Origin: Branchiostoma floridae
Lineage: Eukaryota; Chordata; Leptocardii; Amphioxiformes; Branchiostomatidae
Direction of reading: 5' to 3'
DNA: 64,000 nucleotides
NCBI RefSeq assembly: GCF_000003815.2
Contig: NC_049982.1
Coordinates: 8,490,542 to 8,554,541, forward strand
The notes under the pieces were generated by a model that had not been told where the DNA came from, did not search any database, and worked only from the letters and a program-made list of their open reading frames with translations. The stretch's first letter is position 1. The number at the start of each line of letters is the position of its first letter. The translations under genes and the position numbers were made by a program. Shown in pieces: positions 4,852 to 31,000 of the stretch.

Positions 4852-7800
4852 ATGGCCATGAAAACACTGACACTACTCACCATGGTGATGGTGACGTCAC
4901 CCGTGTCTCTACAAGCCGAGTCTTCTACCCACTACCCAGAAGTTGACCAGACAACCCAAGACCCGGTTGAGGTCTACCGTGGACCGGCTCTTTCAATAGA
5001 AAGGTGCCCCGCTCATAGTCGCATGTTGTGGTGCGGCAGGCGATGTCGACCCACCTGTACCAACCCCAACGGCAAGCCTACCATGTGCGCGCGCATGAAG
5101 TGCGAATCGGGCTCCCAAGGATGTGTGTGTGAGGAAGGGTATCTCTGGCGCAACGGCGTGTGCGTCCTTCCGTATGAGTGTGAAGGTAAAGTCATGTACT
5201 CTATATGTAAACCTCTTTATTTATTTCTGCCTATACACTAGTACTTCGAGAAGGTTTGACTATTTGCCAGGACTAAAATGTCGCTGTAATTGTTATAGAA
5301 TAGAGCCTGAGTTGACACGCGGCAAAAAGTACAGCTACTTTCGTACGTTTCTACTCACTCACAAATACCTTATTTTGAGACGGTTGTTGTTGCACACCTG
5401 CATGCACAGGAAACTGTCACATTCTCTATGTGGTTTGCAACCACACAAATCAATAATAATGAATGAATGAATGAATGGTTTAGCGCCAAAAACAAGTGCG
5501 CATGTACATCATCATTACAGCCATACATGCAAGGGTGTATGATACATAAAACAATAGTTAAAACTTCATTAAGATTCATTTAACAATGATACAATGAAAG
5601 GAAGTGTGCTGTTCCTGAATCTGGATGATCGGCACCTAAACTGTGTGTAGTTGTCCTTTGTACGTAGCTCCCTGCCATGAACACTTTTCGGGGGTAACCA
5701 GTCAGAGAATAGTGGGGACTTCGACACAGACAATGCAAACTTCAAATTAAAATAAACAAAGACTGCGGCGTCTCAGGTACAGCAAAGTAAGTGACAGCTG
5801 TTCTAGGACTCTGTCGTAGCCAACATAGTGTCTACCTAGAATTATTCTGCACGCCCTCTTTTGTACAGCTTCAGTACACTTTGACTGGAAAGCAGTGAGG
5901 CCTGGATGCCTCACTGGGCAAGCATACTCTAACAATGGTCTTACAAACCCACAGAAAAGCTGGCAATACAAACTGACAACACTGATGAAGTAATGAGAAC
6001 ATTGAACACGATTTTTCTTACATCAGGTTTGACGTAGCTCTGTTGAGAACTTCCCTGCGTATGCCTGTCCTTGGTACTAACTGCACCTTCTCTTGTATCT
6101 GTCCAGAGACGACGGAGTTTGTAGAACTTCAGCAGGAAGTTAATCAGCTGGCACGTGAACTGCCCAGGACTCTAGCGGAGCTGGGACTGACCAGTGTGGT
6201 GCAGCATGTTCAGGAGCTGAAGACAAACGGTAAGGCCTGCCCCATCCCTACCCTCTACACTTAGTGTTACAATGTACGGACAGACAAGCTACATTTAGAA
6301 ATTAATTCCTTCTGTACCCGACATTGGCAATAATCCCTTGCTATGCTAAGTTTCAGAGAGTCACCGACGAAAGATAGTAGTGGATGCTAACTAAAACTTC
6401 TATCTGACCGTTTCCAACTTCATATCCAGAGTAAATGTATTGCTATTTGGTGAATGTCATGTTAGTTACTAGATGATACTTCATGACAAATATTTCGTTA
6501 TTCTTAGAATACCTTGGGTGCTACCAGGACGGCTCCAGTCACAGCTTTCCGAGAAAGGTGATGACGTCAAGCGCCATGACGACTGAGACGTGCATAGCAG
6601 CATGCCAGAATGCTGGCTACACCTACGCTGGTTGGTCCATGTTTCATATTCAATGACCATATTTTCTTTAGATCATGAGGAACATAATGGCTTATAATTT
6701 AATTCATGGTCAAAGCGAACCAAATTACATTTGGAAGAGAAGCCATGCAAAATCTTCTTTCTCAGTTTGTAATTATGTTAACAGCGTTACTTGGTGAAGG
6801 TAACTTTTAACAACATTTCAGACACGACTCTCATTAGACAGTTGATTTGTAAATCATGAGCACCATTCAGGAGAATAACGGCAAGGACGTTTTCCCTGCT
6901 CTGTAGCCACCGAGGTTTCCCGTTCTATGGGCTGGTGGTGGCGGAGCCTACATGACTGCCACTGCGGGAGGGAGGCGGACTTCAACCGGCTGGGTCAGCG
7001 GGTGTGTGACAGTGAATGTAACAGCCATTGCCGTGGCAACAGGAACCAGAAGTGCGGAGGAAGGTACAGAATGTCCGTGTACAAGATCGACGCAGGTGAT
7101 TACCTTGTTAGATACCCACATTTCAAACATAGCAACAACAGTCCTTTTAAAAAATGATAAAATTGGCATCACCCACACAATACAGGGGCTCTCAAATACA
7201 ATTAATACAAAATTTGCATTGATTGTTTTTTAAGAGCCCCTGTATTGTGATGGTGATATATGCCAATTCTATCAGTTAGCAGGCGACGAGCACTACTCAA
7301 GAAAAGACGTCACGTTAGTAGATGTAGAAAAAATACACAGAACTACGTTCATGATACATTTAAGCTCGTAGCCTGTTCCTAGGGAAGGGGAGAAAAACGT
7401 TGACCACTAGATATATGTATGAAAAGCCTCAAAAGCACGTGTAAAACATGACATTACATCACAGGTGATTAAGTTGTTAGATTACTCACTATGAACATAC
7501 ATATGCTTGGAGATTTAATGTCTTTAAACCTGCCCCCTTCTTCTCCAGTTCCCAGTTGCCAGGACTCGCCCCGACAGGTCGGTCCTCACTGGTACCAGAC
7601 TGGGAACACCACCCTGCTGCAGTACCAGGGTGACCCGCAAGACCGTCCTTTTGCCTTCACGACTCCTGCCCTGGATGGGAAGGACGCTATCCCCATTCAA
7701 AGTGAGAAAAGTTTGCGTCTTCCAGTTGCAAAATAAACAAGTGCTTTAAAAAAGCTGGCATTTTGCCAAGGTTTGCGTGTGTACACGGTTTTTTTCTAGT

Positions 7801-10800
7801 TATTGGAATGTGCTGAAACTATTGTTTATATTAAATGGATGTAAAAAGGAAACAAGAACAATTTAAAATCACCCTCCCCTGGACTCGATCCCGGACCGTA
7901 GCTCTGCAAATCAGGCTGACGTCAGAGGTATTTGTGTAGTAACCCCTGAACCCGGAAGTCACTTCTCTGCACCATAGCGCACTTTTCAGAAAATGATATC
8001 TCAGCAATCGTATACCCCTGCTTTAACATTTTTACATTGTCACGGTCTCCATAGTACATACTACAAATCTGGTAAGTTAGAAGGTCCAGTTCTTTTTCGA
8101 TAATACAGGGCGATCAATGAAAAATCGTGGCAATTTCCATTTTCGCACTGGAAATCCTACTAATGTCATAGGGTTTCCAGTCGAAATTGTTTTGTACCCA
8201 GGGGAATCAGAACATTTGTGTTCCCTAATAGAGGGTGTTGATTTATGAAAAATAAAAGTTACAGAACAAAAATCGGACCTTCCGTTCCAGAGATATGGCC
8301 CTTTAAAGTTGCTGGGCGGTGTCCGCAGGTGTGGCGCCAGGTGTGAAAATCGCATTTCTAATTAGCAATAATTAAGAAAGTAAAAACATTGTGCCACTCA
8401 AAAGTTCTTTTCTGCACAGTCCAAGTAGTATTTTGTAGCAATCAAGTAAAGATAAGATGTTTATTTGCCTTTTTCTTTCACTACAGGTGAGGTCAACTTG
8501 CTGAAAATTAAGTTTTTTCAGCATGGCACATGCACAGCTGGAAAAGTGGCCAATCATTTCCAGATGACCCCTTTTTGAAGAGCGATAATCAATAAACTGT
8601 TCATCCTATAACTAAGATATTTCAGATATTGGAAATGTGTAGTAGATTCTCTTAACACAGTTTATTGCAGACATTCTAGAGACATGGTTACGAGATTATG
8701 TGTAATCAAAAATACTAATTTGTAACATATCTCAAAAGGTCAAAGGTCATCGGCACCTGTCACTTATATAAGTCCACATAAAAAATTACCTATCAACATT
8801 CTTCTCTATCTCAGTGACAAGTATCACATGTTTAATATAACAGAATAGAAATAGTTTAGATAATTTCCACATCAATTATGCAAATTAGCTTCTGATTTGC
8901 ATAATTAATATTTAATTACATGAAGCATCACTTAATCTATCTACATACCAATAATCATGATGATCCGTCAACCCCTTCTTGAGTTATTCCCTTTCACAGT
9001 CTGACCATAAGCATTGAATATCAGCATACCTTACTACTAAAGGGTTTTGGCACATGCTAATTCTAAATTTGCCATCAAAACTATCACATTTCACCAGGAA
9101 ATACTACTTTTACGACATCTAATGACCAAAAGTATATAAAGATATTACCTATGAACCATGACCACCTGACTTTGTAACTGGTTTATTCAAGTTTATTGAA
9201 CAATTGATAATTCTTTGACATTACAACATATGTTTGAAAAGACTTGGTAGCTCCTCTTCTAAGCTGCACAGCTTTGAATGGTTGATACATTGTAATTCTC
9301 CCTCTGTGCCATCTCAATTTCTTCTATGATGTTCCAGGTGCTATTCCCAATGCAGCATCTTGCAAATCTGAAAACTTTTAACATTGGAAATATCAGCAAA
9401 AACCTCTATGCCCTTGATATCACATTCAACAACAAACACAACTTGCTATGTTATTGATTTTTTGGATCTTACAAGGTAAAAATTGAACTTCAGTGATCAT
9501 CTCAACGTAAATATGCTCACGTTGGACACATTTACAAATGATGTTTCCTTTCATGAAGTTGGTGACAAAGAAAACAAAAGTTTTGCGTCTCAAACCTGAA
9601 ACAAACGTGTCCGAACATACAATGTATCTACACTTATAAAGGCTATCTGTATACAATTAATGAATATCAATACGCTAATTATTTACATGGAAACGAGAAT
9701 ATTTTGATAATTATGGACCCGCCTAACTAAATTTATATGCAGGGTCCTACGGCCGTAACTCACGGCCCGGACTCGGCACACCACACGGAGCGAGTAGCAC
9801 ATGTTGAACATTCACATCGCTAACTCACAACAAACCTACACATGTTATACATCATTTTAAAGCTTAGAAACCGCTTGTTACACACATGGATGCTAGAAAC
9901 CGCTTGTTACACACATGGATGCAACTTTTTGAAAAAATAAGACATCAATGGTGAAAAATGCCATCTAAATTTGCAAACTGGAGGTAAACCACCTTAAAAT
10001 TGCGGTACAAGAAAGTTTCACGTACCAAATTGTAGCTTGTTTTCTTGTCTATCCAATCCTACCATATATGGGTTGCTTCCAAATAAGGCTGAGATGCAAA
10101 TCAGGCTGACGCAACGCCATGCCCGCAGAGCGCTCGAACAGGTAAACGCGGAAGTGACTTTCCCGTCTCGCGAGGCATTTTCCCGAAGGCCATATCTCAA
10201 CAATCTTTTATCCCCTGCTTAAAATTTTTACATTGCCAGGGCCTCCATACTACATACTACAATTCTGGTAAGTTTGAAGTTCTAGGCCTTTCTCAATTTT
10301 ACACGGCGATCAATCGAAAATCGCTACACGCACGGAAAACACCACCGCCGCACGCATGAATATTAACTAAGTCGCAAAGGAATCTGGGATAGGCTATATG
10401 TAACTGTTATATATATATATACACGATTTATTTGGAAAACATTTCATCTTTATGAATTGGTAATACAACGTTAAAATGTAAGAGCAATAATTGGATTATA
10501 TGCTGCACCAATCTTAGGAATATCATACTTCATTCATTTAATCTAATCAAATATCAGGCCCCATTACGGACCACAGACAATGACTCACGACAGAGCTTTT
10601 AAATTGTATACAAATGCATTGCAGATTTTGAACAGGTCCGTTCATCTCAACATCACAACATCACTCCATCACTCCATCACAACGGCAACTATTCTGGTCT
10701 CAGGGCATTTTGCCGCTAAGGCGGCAAAATGCAAAAAAAATACTAAGTGGAAAGATAAGTGTCGTAAGTACTTGAAAAAATAAACCAGCAATCCCTTATT

Positions 10801-11342
10801 TAACAAAGTTGAAGTGCTGTTGGTCATTTTTTTTGAAGTTAAAATCCAAATGTCTTTTGTCCCAAATGTTTTTGCAAAAATTTAAAATACACCCCCTCCA
10901 AAAAAACAACAATTAGATGGGACTTATTGAAGGGGGCGTGCCAATGACCCAGAATAAGTGACGGGTGTCATCTTATCCCGCATGGACCATGAGCTTTAAG
11001 TATTTCAATGCTGTTTGCATTTATCCAGGCACACTGGTGAACATGAGTGCAGATATTGAGGGCTTCCCGAGTCAGTACCCCGCCACCACTGCAGAGGGCA
11101 TGCCCGACCTGGTTCCAGACTACACAGCTCTGCTAGCCTCTCTCCAGGCCCCCGGGCTGCGACTGACGGCAGGGACGGACACCGTGTTGGAGCTGGACCA
11201 ACACTTCTCCATCAGGTCCTACTCCTGTAGTCTGGAGTACAACCCTGGTATAAATGGGCGGTCAGGGAGAGGGATTCGGATGAGGATCATAGTTGTCAGT
11301 GAGAATCCGTATAAAGTGATGGTTGAAATCATTTGTTATTAA
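4852..11342 (+). CDS. Secreted TIL-WSC protein with unrecognised C-terminal module (6 exons, 411 aa)
   Basis: Exons: 4852-5185, 6107-6229, 6508-6630, 6907-7095, 7549-7701, 11029-11342. Every internal junction is GT-AG in phase 1, and the joined frame has no gap. Residues 1-22 form a signal peptide. Residues 52-110 are a trypsin-inhibitor-like (TIL) domain with ten cysteines. Residues 112-152 are a helical linker. Residues 153-256 form a WSC domain on two exons (GCYQDG start, CDSECNSHC and CGGRYRMSVYK end), a putative carbohydrate-binding fold. Residues 257-411 match no family I know but align with the end of the secreted protein at 19.3-21.7 kb. The product is probably extracellular, but whether it is an inhibitor, lectin or matrix protein is open. 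The long last intron is full of repeats. A downstream in-frame ATG (codon 3) also exists; I chose the first. Confidence 0.82.
5459..5476. repeat. (GAAT)n microsatellite
   Basis: About four and a half copies of the tetranucleotide in the first intron of the TIL-WSC gene. Confidence 0.8.
5747..5971 (-). pseudogene. Non-LTR retrotransposon (LINE) reverse-transcriptase C-terminal fragment
   Basis: The minus-strand frame holds an RPLLEYACPV segment, then EAVQKRACRIILG and a late LRRRSLCLF. This is the pattern at the C-terminal end of LINE reverse transcriptases of the CR1/Jockey/RTE type, after the catalytic palm. No palm motif, endonuclease or 3' tail can be seen around it, so this is a short dead remnant inside the first intron of the TIL-WSC gene, antisense to it. 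The family assignment rests on the peptide pattern; the clade is uncertain. Confidence 0.7.
7156..7273. mobile_element. Short hairpin MITE
   Basis: The left arm (GATAAAATTGGCATCACCC, then ACAATACAGGGGCTCT) is mirrored by the right arm with a few mismatches and a small indel. The loop is A/T-rich. Total about 118 bp, in intron 4 of the TIL-WSC gene. There is no coding capacity, so it would depend on a transposase elsewhere. Confidence 0.7.
7850..8355 (-). repeat. SINE-like interspersed repeat with degenerate B-box
   Basis: Read on the minus strand, a GGGATCGAGTCC segment near 7887-7900 resembles a pol III B-box (GGTTCGANTCC). It is followed by a tail (GTTCTTGTTTCC) that also follows the tRNA-like sequence at 45.84-45.92 kb. 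The part at about 7905-8130 recurs at 10092-10330 (TGCAAATCAGGCTGACG, CATACTACATACTACAA-like and GGCGATCAAT segments). I infer a tRNA-derived or composite repeat; its exact ends are unclear. Confidence 0.5.
8870..9000. repeat. Single copy related to the 612-1400 repeat
   Basis: TTATGCAAATTAGC, TTTGCATAATTAATATTTAAT and CCCCTTCTTGAGTTATTCC occur in the same order and spacing as in the 612-1400 units. It lies in the last intron of the TIL-WSC gene. Confidence 0.6.
9865..9922. repeat. Perfect tandem duplication, 2 x 29 bp
   Basis: The 29-base unit beginning TAGAAACCGCTTG is repeated twice head to tail without mismatch at 9865-9893 and 9894-9922, in the last intron of the TIL-WSC gene. Confidence 0.9.
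10092..10330. repeat. Second copy of the 7.9-8.1 kb interspersed repeat
   Basis: It shares with 7905-8130 the opening ATGCAAATCAGGCTGACG-like text, a CATATCTCAACAATC-like segment, CATACTACATACTACAAT and GGCGATCAAT in the same order. It lacks the B-box part, so it is a partial or diverged copy in the same intron. Together the two copies show that this intron grew by repeat insertion. Confidence 0.6.
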
Positions 11343-12011
11343 GCACCACGCACGGGATGCTTTTAAGAGGCTTGTTGTGTGTATATCTATTCCTTCAGTT
11401 CAACTATGACAAAGAAGTTGGGGGGGGGGGGGTGGTAATGTTATAGTAATCATGCTTGCTTGACAATATACAATATATGTATGTAAACTGTTCTTTTGTG
11501 GTGAACTATACAGTACAATGAAGTTCCATTCACTATTATCTCAGTCAATCCTGTGTTTGTTTGTCTCGAGTGTTTCAAACTAAGAAACTACATTTTTTGG
11601 TTTGTGGGCCTCAGGCAAAGCAATTAAAAACGAAATGATTGTCTATATGTATCACATGCCATAAACATGAACTGAGGTCTTAGTTACTACTAGTAATTGG
11701 AAATAGAAAACCAATGGCAGAATGGTGAGATTACTACCAGTTGAGCCACAGGGACATCCTTCTGGTATCACACTGCTGTTTGTTAATAAGTCTCCTAAAA
11801 AGTCATTGGGTATGTTGGTATGGCACTCCTGTCCTAAATAAACTTCAAAAGAGAACCAAAGACTGTGGTATAAAAAAGCTGTTTAATGTCCAGTTGACTT
11901 AGCCACAGTGCTATCTTACTGATGCCTCTTAAGCTCAACCCACAGTGGTATCAAACCACTGTTCAATTCTTAACTGCATCAGCATCCATTGTAGCATCCC
12001 AATGATGCCTG
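11343..12011. other. Convergent intergenic region with a probable poly(A) signal for the minus-strand gene
   Basis: The region lies between the stops of the TIL-WSC gene (+) and the neuralized gene (-). A G-run lies at 11420-11432. ATTAAA read on the minus strand at about 11879-11884 is a plausible poly(A) signal of the neuralized gene. For the plus-strand gene, ATTAAA at about 11620 is the best candidate. Confidence 0.4.
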
Positions 12012-14037
12012 TTAGGCTCTGTACATCTTGATAACATCGAACAACGGAGCGCGGCAGATGGGACAGTTGGCGTCTTCCACCTTCAGGAGGAGTCCGCAAA
12101 TGTCGCACATGCAGACGTGTCCGCATGGGTACGCTACGCTGTTCACGGGCCGCTCATAGCAGATGGCACACGTCTGGTCATCGCGGTACGGCTGGCGAGG
12201 TTCTGTGTCCGGTGGTGGATGGTCTGTAGGGATGGGTGAAGATGAGGAGGGAGCTGGAGATGGTTCATCTGCTGGTACCACACCTGCAGGAGAACAATGT
12301 GGAAACTTTGATTTATCTACCTTAAAAGAAATTTCTTTGCATGACAAAGAAGTCTGGACTTTCTCTTTTTCAATAAAGAAGATCAAGACTATTCTTATTG
12401 GTGATAGAAACTGCAATGCATACAAAATTACAAAGCTGTATGACATCAAAATACATGATATGTTCATTTCTACCAATGAGAATGACGGAAAGGCCCCTGC
12501 AGCTGATCCAAACCTGCTCTATGATATTTAAAGTTTGTAGAAGCAAATCACAATGCTTAGGACAAATAACATAATCAGAAAAGGAGGTAATAAAAAAAAT
12601 GTCTTTCCCACCTGCTAGCCTGATTTTCCTGACAAACAGAGTGAGGATGAAAACTGCCCAGAGCTGCTGTCCTGTCTCCACCTCCAGCACCACCTGTAGA
12701 TCACCCCCGTTCACCCCATAATGGACTCTCCCGCTCTTGTCCAACAGGAAGGTCAGCTTGTCCCCACTCCTCAGTTTCTCCAGGTATTTGAATGTCCAGT
12801 ACTCCTTCCTGCGGCTGGCTGCGGCGCGGCTCGACGGCACGTCTTTCTGCTGCAGGGCTGCAGGATTCACCGCAGTCAGGCCAAAGTCAAAATTGCTGAT
12901 CGACGAATCAGCTTCCAGTATGTAAATGAGGAGCACCTGCCCCGGCTGCAGTGGCCTGTATGTAAAGACGAGTCCGTTGAACATACTTTGGCTGACGTTG
13001 GCAGCGACACTTTTCAGCCCTTTTTGATCAGATTCCAGCCGTACATTGCTACCATGTACGGGATGGAACAGGCTTGCTGTGTACGCTGACTGGCTGTTGT
13101 CAAGACAACGTGGCTGTGATAACATTGACCTTGAGCTGGAGGAAGTTTGTAAAGTTCTGTGAGGTGCCAAGCTTGTTAACGGTGCCCTTCTCATTTGCCT
13201 TAGGTTTAGAGTTTGTCCATTTGGAGGATGCGATTCAGGTTGGGAGGAAGTTACATGGCTCGGAGATGCAGCATTTAACATGTGGTCTGCTGAATGCAGA
13301 GCTGTGTGTGCTGGTACATTTTCCCTTTGACCCGCTTCCAGAGCTGGAGACAGTAGTCTAGTCCTAGCCACAGAGTTTGGTACCCCAACACTTGCACCCA
13401 CACTTCCACTGACAGAGTCTGGATGCTCTCCACTGGATTGCAAATGAGCTGAATCTGTAATGTTGGAGCCAGTTCTTTGAGTAGTGCTGCTTGAGTCTGT
13501 ACTGTGAACAGTGTTTGTGTGAGACAATGTGTTGGTGGAACGACCTGCTGTCGGTAGTCCAGGCTGGTCTGTCACAGTTCTGATGGAAACTCTGCTGTCT
13601 GTTCTGTCTTCACCATTATGTAAGACAGGATCTACTGTTTGAGCAGTAGCTTCCAGGGAAGTTGTTTCCGCAGAAGTGTCACCTGTAGAGATGGCCTGAT
13701 GGTTGTGCTGCAAGATGTTTGTAAAAACACTATCTCTGCAAAATAAGAAAAGTAGATTATTGGTCTGGGAGTATCTTGTATTAAATTTTTAACTGTAGAA
13801 ATTTGCAACTTATTCAGGTGACTTTCAATGTATATTGTCTATGCTACCTTGTTTCATCAGTTGTGCTATGTGACCCTTGACCATTGGCCTGTGACCCTGC
13901 TGGGCACAGCTCCATAACCCCAGGTTGTGAGGTCGATGCCCTCAGCACCAGTGCCCCCTGACCTTCGCCCCTGGGGGTCAGAGTGATGGCATGGATCTCC
14001 CCATGGGGACTGGCTGTGACAGTGATGGCTTTGTATC
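12012..14037 (-). CDS. NEURL: Neuralized-type E3 ubiquitin ligase, NHR plus C-terminal RING (5' end not found)
   Basis: Three exons on the minus strand: 14037-13848, 13735-12612, 12283-12012. They join in frame across GT-AG junctions to give 527 residues ending at a TAA (12014-12012). The first exon starts inside a codon, so at least one 5' exon is missing. The middle exon encodes a long Ser/Thr-rich linker and then a neuralized homology repeat (NHR) with FHPVHGSNVRL, a YWTFKYL segment and VHYGVNGGD. The last exon encodes a C3HC4-type RING with CAICYERPV, CGHVCMC and CPICRAP, ending DVIKMYRA like NEURL1. Family role: NHR binds substrates such as Delta/Jagged and RING transfers ubiquitin, promoting ligand endocytosis in Notch signalling. 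One NHR is visible, so NEURL3-type architecture is possible; a second NHR could lie in unseen upstream exons. Confidence 0.88.
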
Positions 14038-14398
14038 CTAGCAACAGGAAGAAGCAGAATATGTGACTTTTCAGTGAACACTTTTAGCTTCAGATTTTAG
14101 TACCAACATTATTGAACACATCACATGTATAAGTTCCAAGGAAGGACAAACATTCCAGGCCACATGACAGCAGAATATTCAACGACCTGGTTTTTCTGTA
14201 TGAAATAAACACAGTTACTTCTTCGGCCCTTGGTTATAGGAATCCAACATCGACCTGCTGACAGATTTGAAGATCAATTTGCACTACTTTGACTGTCTGT
14301 ATTCCTGTTTACACTGATACAGACACTAACAACCAACTTAAAAAAAAAAAAACTTTTCTGTGTCTGCCAAGGCACTTTATCCTATAACGTTAACGGGA

Positions 14399-14434
14399 GG
14401 GGTCCAAAGTCCGGTAGGGGTCCAAAGTCCGGTA
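14399..14434. repeat. 2 x 18-bp tandem repeat
   Basis: Two exact head-to-tail copies of GGGGTCCAAAGTCCGGTA. Each contains CAAAGTCC, the core of HNF4-type nuclear-receptor sites. It lies upstream of the visible neuralized exons and could be regulatory, but that is inference. Confidence 0.75.
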
Positions 14435-16936
14435 GGATTTTAAAATCATTTTTGCGGAGATATGCATAAGTGTCTGCACATAATAAGTGCAACTTGTTAT
14501 GGACTAAACCTTGTTGTAAATAACTGAAAAGTCAGAGTATGTGTCCAAGTTGGTAAGCCCCAACAGATAACGATTGAAAAAAGTACACAAGTTTGACGCC
14601 TTCCGTGCATGCTGACGAGCGAACATATCGAGAACATGGCCCGGGAAACTATTGAATAATTCATCGTCAAATACGAAATGTGAAAAGATACCACCACAGA
14701 TGAGAATGCTATCTATAAAACTTCCTAAATAAGCACAGCTATGCCGTGTCTTTGCTTTTATAGTTGGATAATCGGAGCTAAATTATGCCGCATGTTCACG
14801 GCCCTGTCAACCCCGCCATCTTTGTCAATCACCTATGAAGGAAGCCGAGCGATGCTCAACACGATGGAGTTAGTCAACCCGTCAGTAGAGTACCAATCAT
14901 TCAAGAAAATCGATCCCTACCGACTAAAGAAATCCTGTAGTCATTTCTGCTGTTAAAAACGAGGTTGAAGCTGGAAATACAGAAGCCGAAAGTGAAAAAG
15001 TGTAATCGCAGGCAGACGTAAACAAAGTGCCGCCATTTTTCTTTTTGGCGACAGGTTGGTTTCACCGTGAGAGGTAATCCTTGTAAGTAAACGTATTTAA
15101 ATATGCATCGTAATTCGAAATATTGCATATATTTGTGACCAAAAATAGTATTGAAGAAGCTTAGTGTTATTTTGCATGCATAGGATGCTTAAAGATATGC
15201 AGAGATGGATTGGTTGTTAACTTATCGGAGTTTGGACCCCCTTTTTTGTGTTAGAACGTTCCACTGAAACGCAAGTCCAAACCTGCCAAAACTTTCGCGC
15301 GCTGTCAAAGTAAAGTTCGGAATGCTGCCGTTAAAGGAAACATATGTCTATACAGCTTAAATCACAGTTATATGGTTGTTAACAAGATCTTAAATTGTTT
15401 TTGATGGGTTGTCAGTAAAACGTACGATGACAAAAGCCATGCGCATTCACTTAGAACAGTTACCGGACATTGGATCCCCCCCGTTACTGTCACCACCTAT
15501 GGTGACATGGCACACTTTGTAGTCACCACAGATGCTAACACTGCAGAAATTACCATCATGCCTATTTTTTGCTTAGGCCACAGCAAATAAATTTCATGTG
15601 TGACATTAGCACACTCAATAATAATTTTTGCTTGATTTCAGAAAAAAACAAGATTTTTTTTCTCACTGGGGATGGTCAACATCACGAAGTTTACAAGTAG
15701 GCAAATGGGTTGTGTTGTGGCCTAATGATTGTACATGTAAATTTTAGAAGTGACACTGGTGCACAGTAACCATGACACTGTAGTTGCTAACTTGGTACGT
15801 ATTACTAAGTGATGCCAGACTACCACAGTGGCAATTTTACTACAATATATTTAGTGCACGTCTCGAATACAGGAATGAATGCCTTGTTGAATGCGTTGCC
15901 ATGTGTTTATGGTGTCAATTTTGAAAATTTGCCCATCTTGTTTTTTTCGTCCTATCTCGTTTATCTTTGCAGTCTGCAAGGGTGTCAACCATAAAATTTA
16001 CGTCACAGTGCTGTGGCCTGCATAGTACACCCCCCCCCCCCCAAAACTTCACCTGTAGTTGGCACATTCACTGCCGCCTCGCGCCCACTAGAAGCGGCGC
16101 TGCTGCCCGTTCCCATTTTCAGATGTTCCTACTGACACCGCTTAAGCCATGTGGAAGTTGTTTGTGCCTCTGAAATCTCAACTTTTGAAGTAAAACCAAG
16201 TTCCGAACAGCAGACATCATCACACTCTCTGACGCTGTTGCCAAGTTACTTTGTTCACCTTTGACCTTACGAAGGCAGCAGAATGAACAAAAAGACATTC
16301 TGTTGCCCTCAAAACATTTTTTTTCAAAAGGATGAAGTAAAGGTATGACCAAACTCCTTAGTATGACATTAGGACATGGGGCAACTTTAACATGAACTGT
16401 ATATAAAAGCATGGCTTATAAAAGCATGGCTTATATGTAGAATATTGGAATTCAATTTCTTTTCCAAACTTCCTTTACCAAACTTTCGCGGTTCACGGTG
16501 GCGGCAGGTGTGCAAAAAAAGAAAGTCGGCGATTTTAATAATACGGTAAGAAACCGGTGTGTGAAGAATTAATAGCCGCTACAAAAGACAATGGTCGAAT
16601 CGGCTGTACGCGCGATGTTACAGACCGAGGTGTGAAGGAATCATAGATTAAAGAACAACAGGTGAGTCGGCAAACAGACGTCGGCGAGTCAAGGCTTTTG
16701 TAAGACAATCTCTCGCCGCGCGTCCCTAGCGCACCGGCGGTATCTTCTATAAGGTTCACAATTTTGAAAGTCAATTGTGCGCCGCTACAACAGACTTTAA
16801 TCAGTCTATTCTTATTCACAATACCATTGTAGACAACATTGAGGAATAAGCTATAAATTGTGACAATCGTTTTACCTGGTTCATTCCTTTGTGAATATTT
16901 GACGAGAGACAACGACCGGCGAATCACCGAAGCAAT
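14435..16936. other. Intergenic region, probable promoters but no recognisable exon
   Basis: The missing first exon of the neuralized gene probably lies here or just beyond. On the minus strand two YY1-like ATGGCGG contexts are visible, near 14811-14822 and near 15030-15040, but neither opens a convincing reading frame. A C-run lies at 16030-16042. A 14-base tandem copy of AAGCATGGCTTATA lies near 16407-16436. Otherwise nothing is recognised. Confidence 0.35.
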
Positions 16937-17506
16937 ATGTTGAGCTGGCTGAAGAAGGCGAACCCGTCCCTGCAGCGCCCAACACCCAGTCCCGGGCGGC
17001 CGAACCCTGTGGACAAGACGAGCCCGTCCAAGCAGCGACCAAAACCCAGCCCCGAGCTCTCGGACGCTGTGGACACGGAGAACTTGACATTGGAGCCACC
17101 AACTTTTCCCGGGCTGCCAAACCCTCTTGACACGGAGGACCCGTGGCTCACCGCAGCTGCCAACAGGGAAGTAGAGAAGGCGTTGACGGAATTTTACAGT
17201 CGCAAGAGGAAACGTACCAGCTACGGGAAGTACACGCCCGAGACGCGAGCGAAGATCGCCCGACTCGCCATGGAGATCGGCGCCCAGAAGACAGCCGTGC
17301 AGATGTCAGAAGAAGTGGGGAAGCAGCTAAGCGAATCGACCGTCCGCTCCATCAGGAAAAGCTACGAGAAGGAAGTTAAGCGACAGGGCACTGACGCCAT
17401 CGCTAGTTTCCCCAGGAAGAACGTAGGGCCGCGGAAGAGTGGCAGGTCTAGTCGCCGACTAGCAGAAGTTCGTGTGGTGGAACTGTTTAAAGTCGCTCCC
17501 GTGTAG
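16937..17506 (+). CDS. Intronless basic protein with helix-turn-helix-like region (189 aa), possibly transposon-derived
   Basis: A single open frame from ATG to TAG. Residues 7-65 are three imperfect ~20-residue proline-rich repeats ending PNPVD, SDAVD and PNPLD. Residues 89-94 are a basic RKRKR-type nuclear-localisation candidate. Residues 97-150 (YGKYTPETRAKIARLA, then SESTVRSIRKSYEKE) look like a three-helix DNA-binding fold. From memory this resembles the N-terminal part of uncharacterised proteins and DNA-transposon products in aquatic invertebrates, with a similar TPE.RAKI....E.GA...A pattern. That is recollection, not a search. The frame ends soon after this region, so it may be a truncated transposase or a domesticated short protein. 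An AATAAA signal at 17650-17655 supports an intronless transcript. No catalytic domain is visible. Confidence 0.6.
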   Translation: MLSWLKKANPSLQRPTPSPGRPNPVDKTSPSKQRPKPSPELSDAVDTENLTLEPPTFPGLPNPLDTEDPWLTAAANREVEKALTEFYSRKRKRTSYGKYTPETRAKIARLAMEIGAQKTAVQMSEEVGKQLSESTVRSIRKSYEKEVKRQGTDAIASFPRKNVGPRKSGRSSRRLAEVRVVELFKVAPV

Positions 17507-17649
17507 CGGTTAACTTACTTGTACTAAATTAAGTATGTTATACTTGTAGTAATTCCTTGAGGTTCCTTTTTCAACCTCCTTGCTTGAACGTTATCCAGTT
17601 TGTAATTGTATAACGTTACATGCCAGTACAAGTGGCGGTAGAAATGTGG

Positions 17650-17655
17650 AATAAA
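17650..17655 (+). promoter_or_regulatory. Poly(A) signal AATAAA of the 16.9-kb ORF
   Basis: Canonical AATAAA 144 bases after the stop codon, on the coding strand. Confidence 0.55.
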
Positions 17656-19327
17656 TCATGAATGTTTTATTTCTTGAATAGAATTTGTGTTTGAGTTGTT
17701 ATTGTGGCGATTATTGCGTGTTGTTGGGATGTATGATGAAAATGCATACTGTACATCATAGAAAACTACAGACATGAAGTAAGTACAAGTAGTGCCAGTG
17801 AGGAGAGAGGGAAGGGGCGAAAGACGAAAGTTTAATAGAGTTAATGCTAACTTCGTTAAAAACATAAAAGTAGTGGAAACGAACATATAGGAGTTACAGT
17901 ATTCCGGATAAATATTTCACAACAAGACAGGTATATTTCAAGACGGTAATACATGCGCCTCCTTGCGATCTACTGTGTGCTTGCACCTTGTGCAAAAAGG
18001 TCTTTTTTAACCTCCTTGGTTCTAAATGTGCGGTGGGCGTAAACTTGTAGCCATTATAACGATTTCGGAAAAGAGAAATGTTTACTTCTATTGTTAATAT
18101 CAATACCTAACATTATAATAACGTTATGTAAGTTTCCTTGCAGCATTGATTTGGGGTCGATTACCCATCCGTACCCTTTGTGGTGACGTAATGAGTGTGT
18201 TGGTGACGCAATATGACTGGGAGACTAGCACTACCAGTCTTTAGAATAAAGTTCGTCAGTGGAATCAAGGACATTGATGGTAGAACAGACTATTCAATGT
18301 AGTATCTAAAAGTAGGAATCTAGACATAAATCCCCCCAACATGGCATCATCTACAGATGTACATGTGAAAGCAAAGGAATGGGACACATACATATACATC
18401 TGTAGTTATAAATATATGACCGTTTGTACTTTAACACCACCTCCCTCTACTAGTTGTCCAGTGGTACCTCCCTACTGAATGAAAGTCACGAAGCTATGCT
18501 CACTTTGACGGTTAGTCACTGATCATACCAACGATATGGTCGTGTATGCATATGTGTAATTCGCGTAGCACACGCTGTGCACACGTATATTAACTGTCCG
18601 GGTCCTCTGAAGCCCTTACAGGTGAGTCTACTACATGTTAATGGCTTAATTTCAAGCCTGATCTTCGGGACTTCACGTGGTGTGCGTAGTAGTGGCGTAA
18701 CTTACAAATGTATAATGAGAGTAACCTTACGAAATTCTCTTGGATTCCTAAAGTTTTATTTAACTCGAAACTAGCAAAGCGTTCAATTTGCCTTTTTGGA
18801 TACATCTCTTAGTGTTTGAATGACACATGACTTGGTGTTTGACAAAACGCAAATCATTGTGTTACAATACTAGTAGTTTGTTTTGCATGGACGGGTGTAA
18901 GTTGGGACAGGGACTGGTTAGACGGCTCTCCCGACCTTATATCACCTGTGCCCTTCGCCTAAAGGGAGAACGTGGGTATCAACAATTACTCATGTCGTTC
19001 TGGCGAATCTTACCGACGTGGTGTCGTTTCTCATGCATTAAGACGGCTTTACGTCAATTCAAACCACGAATTTTCTTTTTATAAATTACTTCCGGGATCC
19101 AATTCACCAGTCCAATGTAGATCTTGCAGTTGAGTAGGATTGCGTGCCGTACTTGCACACAGTTCGAACGAGAGAAAAACACAGCAGCCAATCCGGGTAT
19201 GTACGGAAGATATACAGGCACTGACACATATGACTCAGAACTATATGCAGTAGATTAGCTAGTGTTGTTGAGAGTATGTGTTTCTGTCTATCATATAGGA
19301 CGCTACGGAGTAGACGGTAACTGCCCA
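17656..19327. other. Intergenic, nothing recognised
   Basis: Short ORFs only, no recognisable protein pattern. The last part should include the promoter of the 19.3-kb secreted-protein gene. A pyrimidine-poor AG acceptor candidate near 19296-19297 could mark a split 5' UTR. Confidence 0.35.
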
Positions 19328-21737
19328 ATGAAGTACGTAAGTGTGGTGTTGTTATTGGCCTGTTTGGTATGTGTAACACACGGGGGATGGCGGCCGTGGC
19401 TGACGAAGTTGGTACGGAACAAGATCGCGCAGGACGTGTCAGACAGAGACGTGTGCCACTGGTGCTTCCTGTGTGGGGAGGACTCAATTCCACAATACAC
19501 TAAGTACAGGTGAGTTGTTATTGTTTTTAACGAGTTTACTCCGTGCAGGGTCATGGGATATTTCTCTCTAAGTTGACGGGGGCATATATAGGTTCATATA
19601 TGTTGAGTCCAATAACATAAGTAAGGAAATGGCTGCGAAATGCTGCTTATGATTATATAAAGGCTTGTTTGAGGGAGGTCTGGGAGAGATTGCTATTTGT
19701 GAAAATCATGACCAATTATGTGTGAAAATTAAAAGATTTTTGCAATATTTTTGCTAACTTGATGTATCATTTTTTTTACACTGATGGAAGGTGAATTATG
19801 GTTTCCTGCATTTGATATTTATGTTTTTTTTTCATTCTGGCTGTTCACAGGTTGTCGCGACATTTATGCCAAATGTGCAGAGAGGACTGTGGTCCACCCT
19901 GTAACACCACATGTACACAAGGTGATAGCCAGTTCTCTATTCCGCAGAAGAACGATCACTTCCAGTAGACACACTTTATTGAAAGCAAAAATAACATGGA
20001 GCTTGTAAACTTATCATGCCTTTGGGAAATTTGACTGATCGTTTCGGCAGTTTCCAAATACCTGAAATATAGGTAAACCTAACGTTAACCCTCATGAAAA
20101 GAATCACGCAACATTTCACCTTTCCTTGCTAGAATACTCAGCACTAATGAGGAAGACTCAGAGTATGGAAGTTAAACACACATCACTACCAGCGGACCAG
20201 CCCCCTGCTGTAGTGACTTGCACAAATGTGTGGCCCAAGGGCTTCGAAGTGGAGATGGGCACCACCCTACGCATCTTAGATGTATGGGAAAACTTTACCT
20301 TTACTTTGCTAGAATATGTAGAACAACCCCATACCCTGTTCTCCACAGAACTACTGGATGTGCCGGCCATGAACGCCTCCATGACAGCCATGATGGGCGA
20401 CATGTCTAACCAGACGTCGACCGAGATGGGGATGCACGACATCATGGACCATCTACAGGAGCTGGAGTATCTCGGTAGGCTTTAGCTAGCTATAGATATA
20501 GAGAATAATAATTAAAGGACGGTTGGTGGCCTCGTCAAAATATTGTGTATTCAATGACGAGGAACCAACGTTGACTGGACAGAGGTAGAAATAAGAGATA
20601 AGAGCAGAGCAGAGTCGGATGGAAGACTGCAGTGGGGGATTATCCGTAAGGCAGATGGTACCTGAAATCCTTGACAATCCTTCCTTTAAGTTGAAAACTT
20701 TGGCCCAATCTGTAGACTTTTTGGGTTTTAAAGAATAGGTAGGATCCAAGCGTTCCCGTTTTGGTAAATATTTCAGCCTTTTTGGTTGCTGTAATATTAT
20801 GTATCTTGCTTTGATAAGAATAATGGTAGGGTTGAACACGAATATATAGATTATGACTGAACTGAAGTGACATTAAAAAAAAAAAATGTTTGTTCAAAAT
20901 ATCGTGTCCCCAGAGCCAACATGCGGTGCCCGTACCGCACACTGGAGGCTGACGGGGCAGCGGGTGATGCTGGAGTATCACGGCGGGGACCAGAGGATGG
21001 CGCTGGGATTCTCTGATGAAACTTTGGACGGCCTAATGGAGGACCCCGACTTTACAGGTGCATGTTTTTTTTAGGCATTATGACTTTCTCAGAATCTGTA
21101 AAAGCCATTGCAGTCCAAGCCGCGTTTACGTAAAGATAGGTGTGTTTTTTCCCCATGTGTGTCACAGTGTGCACGTGCACGTGTTAGTATGCTCCTTTGT
21201 AAAGTTTAGCAATTTCCTCTATAATGCTCCTTTGTGTTTCTCTCTCACTGTGTGCACTTGTAGTTTTGGAACTAAATATTGGACGTATGATGATTATTGG
21301 GTGTTATACAAGTCAAAACATCGAAAATTCGTGTAGAACAGAAGAAATTTACAGAATCGGATGCAAAGAATTATCTACTGATGCTGATACTTTTACTGGA
21401 TTTCTCAAATTACAAAGATGATTGTCCGGAGTTCATGTCCAAGATGGGGCAGTGTGAACTTATGGATGATGTGGTCGACCAGTTTCCCTCCATGATGTCG
21501 GACATGATGTCGGAAATGGTACCGGACTGTCACGCTATGGTCAACTCCTTTAACTGTACGGACGACATGGAGATGTCACAGTCGGGCGATACCATGATGG
21601 AGATGGGGGACAACTGGGCCATCAAAACCTACCCCTGCACGCTGGAGTACAGCCCGATTGTACGGAGGGGCTTTTGGCGGTGGATCATCGTTAATGGCAG
21701 ACCACTAAGAATGAAAGTACAGATCAGGTTTGGTTGA
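19328..21737 (+). CDS. Secreted Met-rich protein, paralogue of the 4.85-kb gene (5 exons, 352 aa)
   Basis: Exons: 19328-19509, 19851-19921, 20133-20474, 20914-21057, 21418-21737. All junctions are GT-AG and the frame joins to a TGA at 21735-21737. Residues 1-19 are a signal peptide. Residues 46-83 are Cys-rich (HWCFLC, LCQMCREDCGPPC). The middle region carries several N-glycosylation sequons (NFT, NAS, NQT). A helical stretch ends at about residue 198 with DHLQELEYLG. Residues 199-352 align with the last two exons of the TIL-WSC protein: an HW....G......Y module, then MVPD, SGDTMMEM and YPCTLEYSP. The C-terminal part is rich in Met and Asp. No known domain is recognised. A secreted or extracellular role is inferred from the signal peptide; the biochemical function is unknown. 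Confidence 0.8.
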
Positions 21738-28000: not shown

Positions 28001-31000
28001 ATGACGGGAACTACTTCTTGCTGCTACTTATAGCCGATGTAGGTGGCGTTGCAGCAGCAAGAATGCCATCCCAGACGTGGCTCAGCTTGTATCCCCCCTC
28101 ATCTCTGTTCATGACTGGCACTGATTTTCTGAATATATATTCTGAACTATATGAATAATTGCCAACCTGATGAAGTTATTCACGGATGTTAGAGATAAAT
28201 TCGGACAGATTACGGTCAAGCAAATCCGCGACTGGGAGTCCCAGACAAAGAAGATCGCTCGACATCGCAACCACTTGGTTTACAACTTACGCTGCAGAGA
28301 CGAAGACCTCACCCCTCCCAGCCTTAGGCTAAAGACTAACATCAAAACGCAAAATGCCAACCAAATAATCCGTAAGGCAGAAAAGGCGTTAGTACGGGAA
28401 CGGATTCGAGTCATAAACAACAAAATAGTTAATCTGAAAGTTCAAGAACAAAGAATTGAAGAAGATCTACGCGCGAAACTGCCTACCGATCTCCATGACG
28501 CCGTACGTTCGCATGTAGTCAAAACCCGGGAACGAGAGTTCACAGCTACAAAGACCCGCCATCTTGAAAAGTTCTCCCGTCTCCAGCTCGCAAAACAACG
28601 TGAACAGAGTGACAAAGACATCGATTTATCGGGCACCCAACTCAAAAAATGGGTCGTCAACATTTCGAAGAAGGTACTAAACAGCCACCAGACCGGTATT
28701 TTGAAGAAAGGTCTCAACTACGCGGTGACGCCAGACAAAATGCCGGTGGAAGATTTCATCGTCGCCACAGAAAATGCATGTTTGTGCTTACCGCCGCCCG
28801 AGGCACAACAGCTCAGAGCGCAGGTTGCAGGAGTCCTGACGAAGGCGAAACTCCCGGTTCCCAACATCAGCAAAGAAGAAAGAAAGGCCATACAACAGCT
28901 GAAGAAGGACAAGGATGTTATGATACTGCCAGCGGACAAAGGAAAAGCGACAGTGATTATGGACACGGAGGACTACGAATCCAAGGTAAACCGTATGTTA
29001 TCCGACGAAAAGACCTACCAGAAGCTCGACAAAGATCCAACACAGAAATATAAACGTAAGCTGCTAGCCATTCTAAAGAGGCTGAAAGATGGGGGGAAAA
29101 TTTCGGAAGAGCAGTATAGATACTTATATCCAACGGCAGAGAATACTCCTAGAATGTACGCTACTCCTAAGATACACAAACCCGACAACCCGCTTAGACC
29201 GATTGTAGATTACACCGGTTCGATCGGTTACAATACGTCACGAGCGCTAGCTGACCTTTTGGCCCCTTTGGTTGGGAAAACTGAGCACCATATCAAAAAC
29301 TCCAAACACCTCGCCGAAGAAATGGCTAGCATCATAGTAGAAGAGGGTGAGATGTTTGTATCTCATGACGTAGTGTCACTTTTCACTAACACTCCAGTGC
29401 CAGAGACTCTCAACATTATCAAGGATAGACTACTTGCTGATACTGACCTCAAGAACAGAACCAAGCTCCAAGTGGAGGACATTATGGAGTTGTTAACATT
29501 CATAGTCACCACCACTTATTTCAGTTTTAGAGGCAACATTTACCAACAACGGTTCGGTACAGCGATGGGAAGCCCGGTCTCCCCGGTTCTAGCTAACCTC
29601 TTCATGGAATGGCTAGAACAGCAGGCCATGGCCACAGCTCCTGTGAACTGTAGGCCGAAACTTTGGAAGAGATTTTATAAGACAGGGGACACAACATGAA
29701 CTTACCGACCACTTAAACTCCATAGACCCCACGGGTAGTATCAAGTTCACCCATGAGGAAGAAGATCAGGGCACTCTACCCTTTCTGGACACCTTACTAG
29801 TGAGGAGAGAAGACGGCACGGTGAAACTTTTGGTCTACAGAAAAAAGACCCACACAGACCAGTATCTAGACTTCAATTCCCATCATCCGCTCCACCAGAA
29901 ACTAGGAGTAATCAGAACGCTGATGGACAGGAGCAAAACAGTGGTCACAGAGGAAACAGACAGACAACAAGAGGTCGAACACATCAAACAAGCCTTGTCA
30001 CTCTGTGGTTACCCAGACTGGACTTTCAAAAGAGTGCAACATCAGTCCAACAAACCCAAACCCAAGAAAGAAAAGAAGAAAGAAGAACAGAAGTCTAAGG
30101 GCATGATCATCATACCTTATGTCAAAGGCATTACAGAGACACTTGAAAGGATTTTCAGAAAACACGCCATTGCCACGGCAGTTAAGCCCAAGACCACGCT
30201 CAGAAACTTGTTGGTGCACCCCAAGGACAGACTGGAAGACTCCTCTAAAACAGACTGTGTCTACAAGATTCCGTGCAAAAGTTGTGACAAGGTGTACATT
30301 GGAGAGACGGGTAGGACATTCAACACCAGACTTGAAGAACACAAAAAGGAGGCACAAAACAGCAAAGGCAGTGCATACACAAGATCTCAGAAGAAGGCAG
30401 CAGAACAAACAGAGAACAAATCGGCAGTCACAGACCATATTCATAGAAACAATTGCGTAATAGACTGGGAGGGGGCAAGAGTCATTGACAGAGAGGAAAA
30501 CAGAAGAACTCGATGGATTAAAGAAGCAGTTTGGATCAGAAAATCAGTGCCAGTCATGAACAGAGATGAGGGGGGATACAAGCTGAGCCACGTCTGGGAT
30601 GGCATTCTTGCTGCTGCAACGCCACCTACATCGGCTATAAGTAGCAGCAAGAAGTAGTTCCCGTCATTCCACCCTGATGATGGTGTCTGACAGACACCGA
30701 AACGTCGGAAGTAAGTTATTCTCTGGTTGTGCTAAAAGAACCTTACTATATGAATAATTGCCAACCTGATGAAGTTATTCACGGATATTATACATGTAGT
30801 TTAGCTTTTGAATTCCTTGTGAACTTTGTGAAATTTACTGGACATTGCACAAAGGTCAGAAAGATATGTGATATAATTTATAAAATCTTGCAGCCTTTAA
30901 AACCATGAAAAATGCAGCTCACAGCTGCTGTCTATGTTGCTAAACTGTACATGAATAGGACAATGAATCTTTGATAACATGCCTTTGGCTGCAACCAATT

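Follow-up and report, generated by a model that had tools for sequence, protein, structure and literature searches.

A candidate exon-shuffled C-terminal module in secreted-type mosaic genes of the lancelet Branchiostoma floridae

EGF and sushi domains are extracellular modules that have been shuffled between genes on exons bordered by phase 1 introns. Here we analyze a 64,000-nucleotide window of the Branchiostoma floridae genome (contig C4, positions 8490542-8554541, in an assembly of 513 Mb and 431 contigs) in which two genes, gene 1 (4852-11342) and gene 2 (19328-21737), encode similar C-terminal tails. The tail module shares with EGF and sushi its phase 1 introns, its differing neighbors and, in the two window genes, a signal-peptide-like start of the protein, but differs from them in that no family in the libraries we searched covers it. 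Two named domains occur in gene 1: a TIL domain (PF01826) at the front, outside the shared tail, and a WSC domain (PF01822), a separate domain that lies between a helix-like exon and the exon carrying an HW motif and leaves the tail unmatched. The main text of PMC6109156 does not contain the term "WSC". Ependymin/EPDR1 (PF00811), another secreted family, resembles the module in motif order and differs in giving no profile match. We consider the best explanation, at a probability of roughly 0.55, to be that secreted mosaic proteins carry an undescribed C-terminal module spread by exon shuffling, which would serve as a shared cap. By undescribed we mean missing from the Pfam, NCBIfam and PDB libraries and from the literature that we checked; these libraries exclude unannotated animal proteomes.

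Similarity of the two tails

We rebuilt gene 1 as six exons encoding 411 amino acids with phase 1 introns throughout, which reproduces the placement of its tail at residues 257-411 in an earlier note on this DNA. Gene 2 was rebuilt as five exons encoding 280 amino acids, with a phase 2 first intron and phase 1 introns thereafter. The same note's 352 residues for gene 2 were not reproduced, but fit an alternative acceptor for exon 3 near position 20133; the stretch is open, and its use would leave the tail unaffected. The four tail exons proposed earlier (Table 1) have correct boundaries with AG/GT intron ends, and a splice check confirmed that the intron joining the two tail exons is phase 1 in both genes. 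Phase 1 introns surround the module exons in both window genes, and by eye the last intron seems to be phase 1 at the paralogues examined.

The likeness of the tails could in principle reflect chance or compositional bias, aided by the Met- and Asp-rich stretches of gene 2, whose tail has 18 Met among 153 residues (binomial P 9e-10); across the eight other copies that were counted, Met makes up 1.9%. A BLASTP comparison of the two tails gave 63.2 bits, 27% identity over 147 columns and E 4e-18 (single comparison, composition-adjusted). We then scored the pairs against composition-keeping shuffles (5000 per comparison, local and global scores): none reached the real local score for the whole tail, the HW exon or the last exon, and these scores stood above the shuffles by z 30, 11 and 23, respectively. 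In whole-genome searches each tail recovers the last exon of the other gene, at E 4.6e-6 with the gene 2 tail as query and at E 8.4e-6 with the gene 1 tail; the gene 2 tail also matches other copies, the best at E 3.6e-7. A hidden Markov model (HMM) of the HW exon matches gene 1 with an independent E-value (i-E) of 2.1e-25 and gene 2 with 2.9e-24, each exon's own sequence being included in the model. Because no shuffle reaches the real score, chance or composition is rejected, and we regard it as extremely improbable. The two tails, alignable beyond chance as had been proposed, are almost certainly members of one family.

The shared unit had been described as two exons; this is too small, as a third, helix-like exon directly preceding the WSC in gene 1 and the HW exon in gene 2 is also common to both genes. 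The two helix-like exons align with a local score of 45; the shuffles average 18.4 and none of 5000 scores as high, while 7 of 5000 reach the real global score. A profile of eight helix-like exons that excluded gene 2 scored the gene 2 exon at 10.6 bits, a value reached by none of 4154 scored shuffles. When a three-row profile was used in a plain six-frame scan, this exon gave just 7.0 bits (i-E 1.7), so the claim of a third shared exon leans partly on position and phase.

A family behind different front parts

Searches of the lancelet's own genome and of flanking stretches identified at least 13 loci with the final exon on five contigs (Table 1), 10 with open and three with broken reading frames. 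Since only the best candidates are scored in the search, these numbers of loci and exons are minimum counts. The HW exon was found at 12 of the 13 loci (missing at C7) and the helix-like exon at nine, eight by scan and gene 2 by the profile and shuffle tests. The 8.881-Mb locus retains a weak helix-like remnant (9.7 bits), and at C2 and C362 the fetched DNA spans only about 2 kb, which limits the search for this exon there. No bacterial, archaeal or viral relatives turned up in a pattern scan that used only the last exon of gene 1. The HW and Cys signature proposed for the module holds in both window genes but is looser elsewhere, since three copies have HF, RW or PW instead of HW and six of the 12 HW exons seen lack the first Cys. 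The basic C-terminus noted earlier proved general: Lys and Arg outnumber Asp and Glu in the last 45 residues of all nine copies counted, in the 8.46-Mb copy by one residue only.

A tree of nine copies (8.891, 8.12, C2 and C362 left out; C7 included without an HW exon) places four WSC-linked copies (80/84) and four EGF-linked copies (100/99) on separate sides. By EGF-linked we denote a sequence type, that of the 8.12, 8.881, 8.891, 8.896, 8.901, C2, C7 and C362 copies; our search found an EGF exon directly upstream in two of these eight. The nearest relative of gene 1 is the inverted C4 8.46-Mb copy (98/98), not gene 2, which sits on a long branch flagged for unusual composition, and three of the six inner branches were left open. 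The two window genes had been taken for a simple local duplicate pair, an account that this grouping contradicts.

The domains preceding the module change from locus to locus. In gene 1 both upstream partners exceed the Pfam cut-offs: exon 1 matches TIL at E 8.7e-9 (35.8 bits, cut-off 24.5), and residues 154-245 match WSC at E 1.1e-12 (48.4 bits, cut-off 27.8). The WSC precedes the tail and is no part of it. At all four loci of the gene 1 group a two-exon WSC separates the helix-like exon from the HW exon; gene 2 has none there. The C4 8.46-Mb copy has a WSC and, farther upstream, sushi-like exons, of which four lie in the same stretch and six in another; the one scanned is a Pfam Sushi domain. 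Both C13 copies have a WSC partner (one scanned with Pfam), and EGF exons lie directly upstream of the 8.881 and 8.891 copies (one scanned, a Pfam EGF domain). The Cys-rich front of gene 2 matches no Pfam family above its cut-off, TIL included, and its exon 2 has no similar exon among the paralogue stretches compared. A match of residues 11-109 to PBP_sp32 (proacrosin-binding protein) was set aside at 16.7 bits (cut-off 21, E 0.0045). Judging by order, strand and phase, we infer that the module and the exons upstream of it are parts of common transcripts.

With at least 13 copies behind different front parts, the tail looks like an undescribed extracellular building block. As we envisage it, a C-terminal module of about 150 residues would be encoded by two exons, the HW exon and the final one, and in many copies a helix-like exon would come before these; the introns surrounding the exons would be in phase 1. 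Phase 1 exon shuffling and gene duplication would have put it behind TIL, WSC, sushi and EGF domains. Its evolutionary kind, a shuffled extracellular module, appears ordinary, and the family is apparently nameless.

Several loci show further rearrangements. An extra helix-like exon occurs at C4 8.8596 Mb, with no tail in the flanks fetched. At C4 8.8545-8.8745 Mb a helix-like exon runs directly into an EGF domain followed by an EGF array, and the two stretches fetched there contain no HW or last exon. One C13 copy carries a tandem array (C13:2736060-2737266) of 8.5 copies of a 142-bp unit that reaches into the last exon; the unit combines the 3' end of the last intron with the 5' end of the last exon, and the sister C13 copy has one extra unit. 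We considered whether these units could act as mini-exons. By eye, the consensus GT sites after the coding part are in phase 0 and the unit start is in phase 1, so the units do not fit.

Known folds, and points that weigh against a new module

Pfam (24736 models), NCBIfam and PDB were scanned with members from the same nine of the 13 loci. The proposal of an unrecognized secreted domain family stood in that no library covered the tails and that the window genes begin, by eye, with signal-peptide-like stretches, but was too narrow in confining the family to two genes. A described domain matching the tails was sought in Pfam, and none was convincing: the nine members gave no consistent match, and two families each gave one weak, single-member match (GBS104-like_Ig, E 0.02; HEAT_EF3_N, E 0.35). 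NCBIfam returned one weak match (E 0.083). HMMER searches of PDB sequences found nothing convincing for a nine-row profile or two single proteins; a flagellin-hook match (E 0.1) has no stretch that passes alone, and two matches to one EGF-type copy have E 1.2 and 1.9. Descriptions of the module were likewise not recognized in open-licence papers in PubMed Central (PMC).

Ependymin has a Cys, then a Trp, then a Tyr-containing stretch near its start. We rejected it as a relative: hhalign of the nine-copy profile against human EPDR1 gave a probability of 0.13%, and no member matched the family in Pfam. The ependymin value and the lack of a consistent match among 24736 Pfam models and, for the profile, the PDB speak against the tail being a far-diverged known extracellular fold, invisible to sequence profiles, in which case the family would be new in name only. 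On the other side, our searches consisted of hmmscan with individual members and HMMER runs on PDB sequences, and several known beta-rich folds would accommodate a module of this length with such strand-like stretches. AlphaFold was given the gene 1 last exon, with its gene 2 counterpart as sole partner row; the resulting model had a predicted local distance difference test (pLDDT) score of 38.5, too low to model the fold. We regard a diverged known fold as a real possibility, though one that we would bet against.

A number of observations count against an undescribed shuffled module, and we set them together here. The AlphaFold model just mentioned shows one short helix and then strands with no useful confidence, and because of its pLDDT no fold is supported; a crude propensity guess assigns strands to the HW stretch and the end, with scattered short helices between. 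The exon chains are predicted from genomic DNA, and the changing partners are seen in genomic order only. The final exons at C4 8.12, C4 8.891 and C362 have broken frames, each near the same place and apparently through separate small indels; these copies would be pseudogenes or assembly errors. About 14 kb upstream of the C7 copy contain neither an HW nor a helix-like exon. Substitution ratios estimated with YN00 spread more widely (0.08-0.55) than those given below, with no value for some pairs. The C2 copy has the HW-exon Cys without a partner in the last exon, and the Cys and WSC patterns amount to few events since both follow one deep split.

Sequence types, constraint and possible roles

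Ratios of nonsynonymous to synonymous substitution (dN/dS, NG86 method) range from 0.24 to 0.47 for seven closer pairs, computed on the last exon or both exons. These values show purifying selection between closer copies, and the module is very probably under constraint. For gene 1 against gene 2 the ratio of about 0.5 is uninformative because dS (about 1.4-1.5) is near saturation. The lone open last exon at C7 (C7:4289086-4289397) has dN/dS of 0.24-0.25 against two relatives; an open reading frame (ORF) about 5 kb upstream of it resembles, we presume, a UDP-glucuronosyltransferase.

The copies differ in their cysteines. A P-x-C Cys in the HW exon and a Y-x-C-x-LEY Cys in the last exon occur together in gene 1, gene 2, the 8.46-Mb copy (with H-x-C in place of Y-x-C) and the two C13 copies, and six copies lack both, so that by eye 11 of the 12 copies with both exons agree. 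This agreement could stem from one event. We think it about as likely as not that the two Cys form a disulfide in gene 2 and the WSC-linked copies. The eight EGF-linked-type copies instead have a close Cys pair in common, as in FNC....NC (by eye).

Most EGF-linked-type copies also have a furin-like RRRR run directly before the HW strand (5 of 7 HW exons), and we put the chances that a furin-type protease cuts these copies there, immediately ahead of the module, at about even. Such a site raises another reading of the EGF-linked type, that the module belongs to a pro-form from which cleavage frees a soluble ligand. Gene 1, gene 2, the three other WSC-linked copies and the C2 and C362 copies have no arginine run at this position, and we consider a pro-form unlikely. 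Under the preferred reading, the module would be a compact shared C-terminal cap, conceivably of alpha-plus-beta fold, while the front domains would do the binding. A role in oligomerization or matrix attachment is a tentative suggestion.

Gene 2 stands out by its methionines. Its three module exons contain 26 Met in 195 residues, with 12 overlapping MM, MxM or MxxM matches, spacings that call to mind the Met-rich Cu(I)-binding stretches of copper transporters. In PMC12731240, CTR1 is a membrane importer, unlike the secreted-type gene 2, and a cited title concerns a Mets peptide that binds Cu(I). A bolder proposal would combine a new extracellular fold, possibly restricted to lancelets or close kin and acting as an assembly tail on sushi, EGF, WSC and TIL proteins, with extracellular Cu(I) binding by the Met-rich helix-like and tail exons of gene 2; we consider it a long shot.

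If an exon-shuffled C-terminal module is the correct reading, an unnamed block with its own three-exon layout would join the shuffled extracellular domains. It would comprise two sequence types, one with a likely disulfide and the other with a likely furin site in most copies, and would present a case of another domain, WSC, lying between two exons of a module. Lancelet proteins so far unlinked could then be grouped, and their function could be tested with small recombinant tails.

Gene models and neighboring features

Table 1 Exons of the two window genes, loci with a final exon, and other features of the window
Feature	Position	Strand	Description
Gene 1 exon 1	4852..5185	+	Signal-peptide-like start (by eye), then TIL; ends in phase 1
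Gene 1 exon 2	6107..6229	+	Helix-like, LP.TLAELGL..V...QEL; third shared exon; similar exons at other loci
Gene 1 exon 3	6508..6630	+	First half of WSC (Pfam)
Gene 1 exon 4	6907..7095	+	Second half of WSC; similar pieces in the C4 8.46-Mb copy and the two C13 copies
Gene 1 exon 5	7549..7701	+	HW exon of module; z 11 against gene 2
Gene 1 exon 6	11029..11342	+	Last exon of module, with stop; BLASTP, splice check, shuffles and genome search
Neuralized gene	12015-13713	-	Neuralized and RING finger in neighboring ORFs
HTH-like ORF	16937-17503	+	Weak HTH_32 match
Gene 2 exon 1	19328..19509	+	Signal-peptide-like start (by eye), Cys-rich; ends in phase 2
Gene 2 exon 2	19851..19921	+	Cys-rich; ends in phase 1
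Gene 2 exon 3	20349..20474	+	Helix-like; 8 Met in 42 amino acids; may start near 20133
Gene 2 exon 4	20914..21057	+	HW exon of module; z 11 against gene 1
Gene 2 exon 5	21418..21737	+	Last exon of module, 15 Met in 105 amino acids, with stop
Putative retroelement	28170-30657	+	Two ORFs
Final-exon loci	C13 (two); C4 8.12, 8.46, 8.50 (gene 1), 8.51 (gene 2) Mb		
Final-exon loci, continued	C4 8.881, 8.891, 8.896, 8.901 Mb; C7; C2; C362		

A neuralized gene had been noted between the two tails and is borne out by matches to Neuralized (E 5.3e-26) and to a RING finger (E 1.9e-14). The nearby ORF described as resembling a helix-turn-helix (HTH) protein does match HTH_32, but weakly, at 18.2 bits against a cut-off of 33.7. 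Downstream of gene 2, two further ORFs match a reverse transcriptase (E 7.8e-4) and then part of a GIY-YIG nuclease (E 1.8e-4), both below the Pfam cut-offs, and the pair resembles a Penelope-type retroelement.

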